Shown: positions 43,830 to 49,719 of the stretch, in pieces
Layout: each line of letters begins with the position of its first letter
Numbering within the stretch: position 1 is the first letter of the stretch
From: Bifidobacterium breve
Lineage (GTDB): Bacteria; Actinomycetota; Actinomycetes; Nanopelagicales; Nanopelagicaceae
Direction of reading: 5' to 3'
Length of the DNA: 53,514 nucleotides
Assembly (NCBI GenBank): GCA_945860275.1
Contig: CAMAPN010000006.1
Span: 1-53,514, forward strand
The notes under the pieces: model-generated
The model's input: only the letters and a program-made list of their open reading frames with translations
The model's database searches: none
What the model was told of the DNA's origin: nothing
Position numbers and translations under genes: made by a program

Positions 43830-46938
<3,109 letters not shown>

Positions 46939-46947
46939 GATGAGTCC

Positions 46948-47067
46948 ATGTTGATCCTCTCTGAAGCGCGAGAACTGCCGGCCCCTCCGGTTTTCTTTGG
47001 CGTAGTCGCCTTCGCAATCCTGAGCCTGCTGCTCTATTTAACGTTGCGAATCGATAAGGATCACTAA
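46948..47067 (+). CDS. Short single-pass membrane protein upstream of nadD
   Basis: 39 residues: an N-terminal stretch with LPAPPVFFG, one hydrophobic helix (about residues 14-32), then RIDKDH at the end. Small membrane ORFs of this shape (LPxPP then helix) commonly precede nadD in actinobacteria, as far as I recall; function unknown. TAGGAT lies six bases before the ATG. Its stop TAA (47065-47067) is one base into the presumed AUU start of nadD. Confidence 0.6.
   Translation: MLILSEARELPAPPVFFGVVAFAILSLLLYLTLRIDKDH
47056..47060 (+). promoter_or_regulatory. Shine-Dalgarno AAGGA before the presumed AUU start of nadD
   Basis: AAGGA, six bases, ATT at 47067. It is the only ribosome site in register with the conserved nadD reading frame. 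Confidence 0.45.
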
Positions 47068-47648
47068 TTCTCTCTCCAGCTCTTCCAACCGCCTTATTTG
47101 GTGGAACATTCGACCCAATTCACAACGGTCACATTCGCGCAGCTGAAGAAGTTCTAGCGCAGCAATGTGCAGCCAAAGTTGTTTTCTTGCCAGCAGGCGA
47201 ACCGTGGCAAAAGGGGAGCACGCTTACTGCAAGTGCAATCGAGCGAGCGTCGTTAGTTTCGAAAGCAATCTCATCGAATCCGCGATTTAGCCTCTCTACC
47301 CGAGAAATTGAACGCTCTGGTCCGACGTACACAATTGACACAGTTCGGGAATATCAGCAAGAGTTTCCAGCAGAAGATTTCGTACTACTACTTGGTAGCG
47401 ATGCTTTTAATGGAATTCCCACCTGGCGCGATTATGAAGAACTTCTTCAATCGATTGATCTTGTTGTCGCGATACGTCCGGGGGAGCAGTTATCGGATGT
47501 GCCCGGTGCACACCTGCGCGTCATTGAGTCGGAGATGTTCGACATATCGTCTACCGTGATACGGCGCGCAGCAAAGAGCGGTGCTGACCTCGCTAAGTTT
47601 GTACCAGAGGTAATTGCCAATGAAGTGGAGCGGATTTATGGCGCTTAA
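47067..47648 (+). CDS. nadD: Nicotinate-nucleotide adenylyltransferase
   Basis: About 193 residues, normal length. Nucleotidyltransferase motif LFGGTFDPIHNGHIRAA near the N-terminus, ISSTVIRRAAKSG near the C-terminus, and LLLGSDAFNGIPTWRDYEEL typical of NadD. Converts nicotinate mononucleotide to deamido-NAD. No ATG, GTG or TTG occurs in this frame between the upstream stop at 47055-47057 and the GGTFDP motif, so the first 40 residues are lost if the ATG at 47187 is used. ATT 47067 is the best candidate start. Confidence 0.85.
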   Translation: MLSPALPTALFGGTFDPIHNGHIRAAEEVLAQQCAAKVVFLPAGEPWQKGSTLTASAIERASLVSKAISSNPRFSLSTREIERSGPTYTIDTVREYQQEFPAEDFVLLLGSDAFNGIPTWRDYEELLQSIDLVVAIRPGEQLSDVPGAHLRVIESEMFDISSTVIRRAAKSGADLAKFVPEVIANEVERIYGA

Positions 47649-48006
47649 AGCACAGACCATTTCGCTCACAAAGCTTGCAGTCGCTGCAGCCGAAGAGAAA
47701 TTGGCGAAAGATATCGTGGCTTTGGATCTTTCCAATCAAGGGATCTTGTCTGATGTGTTTCTCATAATTACAGGTGCTAACGATCCGCAGTTAGAGGCAA
47801 TCTCTGATGAGGTACAACGAGAATTACAGAAAGCTGGAGAGCGACCAATCCGTCGTGAAGGGATGGGTGGAAGTTCGCAATGGATTCTCCTTGATTACGG
47901 TGATTTAGTAATTCATATTCAGCATCCTGAAGTGCGAAGTTATTATGCGCTCGAGCGACTATGGGGCGATTGCCCAAAGCTGACTACTCAAGTAGGAATT
48001 TCATGA
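47638..48006 (+). CDS. rsfS: Ribosome silencing factor
   Basis: 122 residues. AAAEEKLAKDIVALDLSNQ start and the core SDVFLIITGANDPQLEAI, WILLDYGDLVIHI, EVRSYYALERLWGD of RsfS. Binds L14 and blocks subunit joining in starvation. ATG 47638 chosen for GGAG upstream; overlaps nadD by 11 bases. Confidence 0.9.
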   Translation: MALKAQTISLTKLAVAAAEEKLAKDIVALDLSNQGILSDVFLIITGANDPQLEAISDEVQRELQKAGERPIRREGMGGSSQWILLDYGDLVIHIQHPEVRSYYALERLWGDCPKLTTQVGIS

Positions 48007-48644: not shown

Positions 48645-48700
48645 CCAGAACCTGGGCGAGTAGCAGCAACTTTTCTTTTCATCTAGAGTTCTCATGTTTC

Positions 48701-48773
48701 GGGGCTGTGGCGCAGCTGGTAGCGCACCTGCATGGCATGCAGGGGGTCAGGGGTTCAAGTCCCCTCAGCTCCA
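48701..48773 (+). tRNA. tRNA-Ala (GGC)
   Basis: 73-nt cloverleaf: acceptor GGGGCTG/CAGCTCC, D arm GCGCAGCTGGTAGCGC, anticodon stem CCTGC/GCAGG with loop ATGGCAT, T arm AGGGG/CCCCT, discriminator A. CCA is not encoded. TAGAGT is upstream as a likely -10. Confidence 0.93.
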
Positions 48774-48774
48774 C

Positions 48775-49719
48775 GTGGCAGCGCTTCCGACGATTCCCAA
48801 AAACTGGAATAAGCCAGATTCACTTACCGGAAGACATTTTCTTATCACTGGTGCAAGTAGCGGTCTTGGACTTGAAGTAGCTCGAGCGGCAATCGCAGCA
48901 GGCGCTGATGTGACACTTGCAGTTCGAAACATCGAAAAGACAACGGCGCTTATTCCGCAATTGAGTGTAGGCGCCACAGGAAGCGTGCAGGTGCTTAATC
49001 TCGATCTTACAAATTTAGCAAATATCAAGAGTGCAGCTAGCTCCGTAACCAAACCAATTGATGCGCTCGTTCTCAATGCAGGAGTGATGGCGACTCCGTT
49101 GCGCCACACCGATGATGGCTTTGAACTTCAGATGGGCACCAATCACCTTGGGCATTTTGCCTTCGCTGGCCAAGTGTTGCCCGCGCTCGCTGCAAGAGCG
49201 CGAGTAGTAACCGTGTCGAGCATGGCTCATCGCATGGGGTCATTTAAACCAGAGCTAATCATCGATCAATGTTATGGACGTGGTGAGTACAGCCCATGGA
49301 GCGCATATGGTCGAAGTAAATTAGCGAATTTACTTTTCACACTTGAGCTACATCGCCGTTCGCAACACGGTCAATTACCAGGAAAGAAAGAAATTATTGC
49401 AACTGCAGCACATCCAGGTTGGTCATCGACAAATTTGCAGGCAGTTGCTCCGCAAATGAAGAATCAACCATTAGTGGAACGTGGCACGAGTGTGGTGAAT
49501 AAGGTTTTCGCGCAAAGTGCAAAACAAGGTGCGCTCCCAATTCTTTGCGCTGCAACTTTCCCTGAGATTCCTGGTGGAAGTTATCTAGGTCCAGATGGAT
49601 TCTTGGAGATGCGCGGATATCCGAAATTCACGCGCGCAAGTGGCGCAGCCTACGATCAAAACCTCGCCGCAAAACTCTGGGATATTAGTTGTGAGCTCAC
49701 CGGAGTTCGCTGGAGTTAG
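48775..49719 (+). CDS. SDR-family oxidoreductase, retinol dehydrogenase/WWOX-like
   Basis: 314 residues. Cofactor motif ITGASSGLGLEVA, NAG in LNAGVMATP, SSM and YGRSK catalytic residues. Atypical SDR often annotated as a short-chain oxidoreductase; substrate unknown. GTG at 48775 is one base after the 3' base of tRNA-Ala, and no ribosome site can fit, so translation must be leaderless after tRNA processing. The first later ATG in frame falls far inside the Rossmann fold. Confidence 0.8.
   Translation: MAALPTIPKNWNKPDSLTGRHFLITGASSGLGLEVARAAIAAGADVTLAVRNIEKTTALIPQLSVGATGSVQVLNLDLTNLANIKSAASSVTKPIDALVLNAGVMATPLRHTDDGFELQMGTNHLGHFAFAGQVLPALAARARVVTVSSMAHRMGSFKPELIIDQCYGRGEYSPWSAYGRSKLANLLFTLELHRRSQHGQLPGKKEIIATAAHPGWSSTNLQAVAPQMKNQPLVERGTSVVNKVFAQSAKQGALPILCAATFPEIPGGSYLGPDGFLEMRGYPKFTRASGAAYDQNLAAKLWDISCELTGVRWS

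Follow-up and report, generated by a model that had tools for sequence, protein, structure and literature searches.

I found that the nadD gene of the window (the whole stretch of 53,514 nucleotides analyzed here) has no canonical start codon, and that its translation very likely begins at an ATT codon (nucleotides 47067 to 47069, forward strand) overlapping the stop codon of a small ORF. AUU or AUC is accepted as the start codon of few bacterial genes, most of which have been found singly. As judged from the comparison of relatives, the missing canonical start and the ATT junction are a real, conserved biological feature, and a non-canonical nadD start is common to six genera of the Nanopelagicaceae family, AUU being used in three genera and AUC in three.

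Read from ATT, the nadD gene for nicotinate-nucleotide adenylyltransferase extends from 47067 to 47648 on the forward strand and has 193 codons plus a stop codon. The product matches the NCBIfam model NF000840 with 167 bits (cut-off, 150 bits) and TIGR00482 with 150 bits (cut-off, 112 bits), and it aligns to solved NadD chains, the best being 5db4 with an E value of 1.3e-31. The nucleotide-binding/catalytic motif GGTFDPIHNGH corresponds to codons 12 to 22 counted from ATT. The protein therefore has both marks of the NadD family, a score above the curated cut-off and the GGTFDPIHxGH motif near the N-terminus. The gene lies between ligA (NAD-dependent DNA ligase; 44896 to 46938, forward strand; NF005932, 844 bits) and rsfS (ribosome silencing factor; 47638 to 48006, forward strand; TIGR00090, 100 bits), and the rsfS ORF has an ATG start codon and overlaps the end of nadD. 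Is there a second NadD with a normal start in the genome? Only nadD scores above the TIGR00482 cut-off; the sole other match has 25.7 bits, far below 112 bits, and is probably another nucleotidyltransferase such as coaD. Within the genus, NadD proteins are 64 to 91% identical, and the third codon positions of nadD change 2 to 4 times as often as the first or second ones; between the genomes G000 and G001, for example, the changes at codon positions 1, 2, and 3 number 41, 26, and 104. By these sequence features, nadD looks like a functional, single-copy gene. Separately, the draft genome G001 has a second nadD (L136 on the short contig C240) resembling that of genus g17, which is probably a contamination.

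In the nadD frame, a stop codon TAA (47055 to 47057) is followed by GGA TCA CTA and ATT (47067 to 47069), then by CTC TCT CCA GCT CTT CCA ACC GCC TTA TTT, and then by the motif codons from GGT at 47100 (GGT GGA ACA TTC GAC CCA ATT CAC AAC GGT CAC). There is no ATG, GTG, or TTG in this frame between the stop codon and the catalytic motif. The first canonical codon in frame is TTG at 47187, which lies past the motif; thus, a start there would remove the active site. A Shine-Dalgarno (SD)-like AAGGA (47056 to 47060, forward strand), located inside the small ORF and kept in relatives, precedes ATT by 6 nucleotides. It is complementary to the anti-SD in the 16S rRNA 3′ end of a genome of the same genus, G003 (GGATCACCTCCTTTCT). 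The stop codon TAA of the small ORF (47065 to 47067) and ATT have the base 47067 in common, producing a TAATT overlap (47065 to 47069, forward strand). The coordinates given in the initial annotation, and the lack of ATG, GTG, and TTG before the motif described there, all proved exact on re-reading the sequence. In the genomes G000 to G003, TAA closes the nadD frame ten bases before ATT, and GGA, TCA, CTA, and ATT are the sole codons before a variable linker; in G000 and G001, ATT is even the sole AUN or NUG codon in the whole stretch. A coding-potential model trained on a genome of the same genus placed the maximum-scoring start of the nadD ORF at 47067, and nadD was the sole gene of the window for which a canonical start was missing. 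No Rfam match was found at the junction up to E = 1, nor was an RNA structure masking the nadD start, since the folding energies were like those of shuffled sequence.

The small ORF (46948 to 47067, forward strand; MLILSEARELPAPPVFFGVVAFAILSLLLYLTLRIDKDH) has 39 codons with one hydrophobic stretch. Its product resembles a small hydrophobic membrane protein and has no match in Pfam or NCBIfam. The small ORF is kept directly 5′ of nadD in most of the Nanopelagicaceae genera surveyed. Similar ORFs were also seen to precede nadD in some other actinobacterial families.

Is the ATT codon conserved in close relatives? The genus of the window (g1) was represented by five genomes, one of which (G003) is a single contig of 1.55 Mb, and the sister genus (g12) by four genomes. 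It was revealed that AAGGATCACTAATT is identical and in the same place in all five genomes of the genus and in all four of the sister genus, one silent C/T difference in its earlier part aside, and that AAGGAT is kept in all nine. The TAATT overlap is the same in these 5/5 and 4/4 genomes and in 13 genomes of genus g2. The presence of ATT in nine of nine genomes of two genera is not due to chance. The distance from ATT to the GGT codon of the motif varies (33, 48, 33, 45, and 33 nucleotides in the genus and 21 nucleotides in g12), always as a multiple of three; thus, the insertions in the linker respected the frame set at ATT. The third codon positions of nadD differ at 55 to 68% in nearly all pairs within the genus, and recent ancestry therefore does not explain why ATT has been fixed. 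The proposal of the initial annotation that nadD starts at AUU is strongly supported by these relatives. Two kinds of counter-evidence had been named beforehand, a relative with an in-frame ATG or GTG at this site and a frameshift from the small ORF, and neither was found in the genus or the sister genus.

I then examined 114 nadD loci from 16 Nanopelagicaceae genera for an in-frame ATG, GTG, or TTG after the nearest upstream stop codon of the nadD frame. No canonical start codon at all was found in 44 of the 114 loci, which belong to g1 (5/5), g12 (4/4), g2 (12/15), g7 (2/3), g8 (13/15), and g15 (8/9). In the remaining loci of g7, g8, and g15, the sole canonical codon is a TTG immediately at the motif. 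Outside the family, none of 99 nadD loci lacks a canonical codon; all have one within 30 codons, and 89 of the 99 have one at codons −20 to −3. The 19 distinct sequences from g1, g12, and g2 all have the TAATT junction, in which ATT overlaps the stop codon. The junction of g7, g8, and g15 has four variable bases between the stop codon and an ATC that is invariant in 17 distinct sequences (the count omits G024, G078, G106, and G154, whose junctions are of other length or altered). Thus, nadD in the six genera has the two features expected of an AUH start, that is, no canonical codon in frame before the conserved N-terminus and an AUH codon conserved in relatives.

Other genera of the family differ in this trait. 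An ATG, TTG, or GTG codon is available for nadD in g4, g16, g9, g6, g3, g11, and g13, while the probable nadD start in g17, g10, and g5 is a TTG lying within the small ORF by a few bases. The genera g17 and g10 were considered as further AUH cases because ATC or ATT lies at or after the stop codon, but nearly all of them retain a TTG 11 nucleotides inside the small ORF, and they were counted as canonical. Since these other genera use TTG, ATG, or GTG, the non-canonical start is not needed for function. The SD-like sequence is good, with 6-nucleotide spacing, in g1 and g12, and weak or absent in g2, g7, g8, and g15; thus, the mode of initiation may differ between lineages. In a tree of NadD sequences, in which many branches are weakly supported, the AUU/AUC genera are divided between two separate parts, one comprising g1 and g12 and the other g2, g7, g8, and g15. 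This indicates either two origins or the loss of an old state in the other genera.

Non-canonical starts were also found in other genes. In this family and in the other families examined within the class, the infC gene encoding IF3 has an ATC start preceded by a GGAG-type SD sequence (loci L219 to L246; L234 in G003), while no infC match above the threshold was found in the draft genome of the window itself. The infC start being AUC throughout the class, the control of start codons by IF3 is in place. When G003 was scanned for genes whose strong coding signal begins ahead of any canonical start codon, infC ranked first, which validated the scan, and lspA, metX, a few more genes, and nadD were also found. 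The lspA start region is AGAGGAGCG(T/A)CGCTAATT, and lspA appears to start at an ATT that forms a TAATT overlap with the stop codon of the preceding gene in four of the five genus members (L326, at position 1173375 of contig C1 of G003 on the minus strand, and L327 to L331); G001 has an in-frame ATG instead. At the corresponding site, the sister genus has TTAATT, and g8/g9 have CTGATC. From its sequence, the metX start seems to be ATC in G003 (L356) and ATT in G017 (L373); ATG is present in most other members of the family. Thus, nadD is not an isolated oddity. A YeeE-like gene of G003 is a doubtful further AUU case, as an in-frame TTG lies upstream in its relatives, whose codon at the AUU position is ATC.

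How may such a start work? The initiator fMet-tRNA would start nadD at AUU 47067 by near-cognate pairing. Ribosomes finishing the 39-codon ORF would stop on a UAA, the final A of which also begins AUU, and AAGGA inside the small ORF would hold them in place for a restart on AUU. Such a poor start codon would keep the output of NadD low relative to that of its operon neighbours, and this output would depend on IF3, which would limit its own synthesis via the AUC start of infC. The overlap in g1, g12, and g2 and the 4-nucleotide gap in g7, g8, and g15 have the close stop-start spacing seen in translationally coupled gene pairs. It is likely that nadD translation is coupled in this manner to that of the small ORF, and the weak-SD lineages g2, g7, g8, and g15 should depend on the coupling more than g1. 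The explanation as a whole, comprising a functional nadD, an AUU start, restart after the small ORF, and a low, IF3-dependent output, is considered reasonably probable. The sensitivity of nadD to IF3 can, for its part, be called fairly probable. The infC start is ATC in Streptomyces, where IF3 represses the non-canonical start of sigR (PMC5472188); by analogy with this repression, and given the AUC start of infC, an IF3 link to nadD is plausible. In Staphylococcus aureus, AUU and AUA starts give about 10 to 30% of the output of AUG (PMC13009471), and excess IF3 lowers re-initiation in Escherichia coli, less so with an SD sequence (PMC2268962). A special initiator tRNA reading AUU is disfavoured; none with an isoleucine anticodon was found in G003, whose tRNA set is ordinary, with one initiator with the anticodon CAU (picked by eye among three CAU tRNAs).

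The role of the small ORF may be questioned, since 30S subunits might initiate at AUU directly through the AAGGA SD sequence, as in infC, the overlap then being incidental. The good SD sequence and 6-nucleotide spacing in g1 and g12 are in line with such initiation, and infC of the same genomes follows the same logic. However, g2, g7, g8, and g15 have kept AUU or AUC beside the stop codon of the small ORF without a comparable SD sequence, and uncoupled initiation is thus regarded as unlikely, if worth bearing in mind. It is also rather unlikely that AUU and AUC are merely tolerated at stop-start junctions, where a ribosome is parked by the stop codon and the SD sequence, with no selected tuning of NAD synthesis by IF3. 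The junctions of lspA and metX described above would fit such tolerance, and so would the use of TTG, ATG, or GTG by nadD in other genera, as expected of a loosely constrained trait. Nevertheless, six genera have retained precisely AUU or AUC despite large divergence at third positions, with no drift back to ATG, even though a single base change would give ATG back. The sequences are compatible both with a weak start selected for dosage and with one merely tolerated.

More radical readings fare worse than restart at AUU after the small ORF. Ribosomes might shift frame or hop over the stop codon from the small ORF, making a membrane-anchored NadD fusion with no separate start, and it is true that the nadD frame is open well upstream in G004 and g12 and that the small ORF always abuts nadD. 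However, the offset between the two frames is not constant, being one in g1, g2, and g12 and another in g7, g8, and g15, and in G024 the small ORF is in phase with nadD with a stop codon in between. These observations disfavour a frameshift fusion. In G000 to G003, moreover, the shift would have to fall within GGATCACTAA, where no slippery heptamer exists. With neither the constant offset nor the slippery site of a programmed frameshift, this reading is very improbable. That a sequencing or assembly error hides an ATG might be supposed for a window taken from a draft genome of 61 contigs, but four other genomes of the genus, among them the single 1.55-Mb contig, and four of the sister genus have the identical sequence, which leaves this supposition with hardly any probability. 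It is just as hard to believe that nadD is a decaying pseudogene that has lost its start codon. Nothing beyond the missing canonical start speaks for decay, while the gene is the sole nadD of its genome, has diverged mostly at third positions at 64 to 91% protein identity, retains its motifs and operon, and is in the same state in 44 loci of the family.

Restart at an AUU that overlaps a stop codon has partial counterparts in known systems. The infC gene likewise starts at AUU (E. coli) or AUC (Streptomyces and the family and class studied here), has an SD sequence, and is subject to discrimination by IF3 against its start; it differs in being autoregulated by its own product, whereas the product of nadD is a metabolic enzyme and the nadD start is overlapped by the stop codon of a small ORF. 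The GTC start of Streptomyces sigR is also a conserved actinobacterial non-canonical start that was missed by automatic annotation, and it is repressed by IF3 (PMC5472188). In contrast to nadD, whose AUU/AUC starts emerge from sequence comparison, the sigR start is GTC, belongs to a sigma factor, and was shown by experiment. In S. aureus, ccpN (AUA) and cvfC1 (AUU) have conserved AUH starts that lower initiation; they need an extended SD sequence and encode a regulator and a small protein, and stop-start overlaps are not described for them in the available part of that source (PMC13009471). The AUU start of E. coli pcnB keeps the expression of a chromosomal gene low, as cited in PMC1780047 and PMC13009471, though in another gene and organism, and it is not known to be part of a family-wide pattern. 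As for the junction, stop-start re-initiation such as that at TAATG (PMC2268962) involves the same common base between stop and start, coupled translation, and lowered re-initiation in excess IF3. The nadD start, unlike these, is AUU or AUC and goes uncounted in ordinary surveys of junctions.

Thus, nadD probably belongs to a known kind, the non-canonical and probably IF3-sensitive start codons of infC, pcnB, sigR, and ccpN. A literature search on nadD with an AUU start and on the start codons of Nanopelagicales revealed no relevant paper. Judging from the papers searched, the gene nadD itself, the depth of conservation, the exchange of AUU and AUC, and the overlap with the stop codon are new. 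NAD synthesis must pass through NadD, whose poor start recurs in six small-genome actinobacterial genera. The AUU and AUC lineages are a natural, repeated test of whether poor starts set enzyme dosage and whether the IF3 level reaches metabolism.

More tentatively, the start rule may be relaxed in the family, so that AUU and AUC would be regular starts at stop-start junctions (TAATT, TGATC, and TAA followed by four nucleotides and ATC) for several important genes, namely nadD, lspA, and probably metX, and genes besides infC would be linked both to IF3 and to translation of the preceding gene; this wider generalization is possible but doubtful. Gene callers accepting no starts other than ATG, GTG, and TTG would drop or truncate nadD, and false reports of the loss of NAD synthesis are thus possible. 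If the relaxed rule is true, such callers would miss or truncate other junction genes such as lspA and metX too. Another mechanically defined start was noted downstream in the window, where an ORF for a dehydrogenase-like protein (48694 to 49719) begins inside a tRNA-Ala (GGC) gene (48701 to 48774); thus, the true start of the dehydrogenase-like gene must be downstream.
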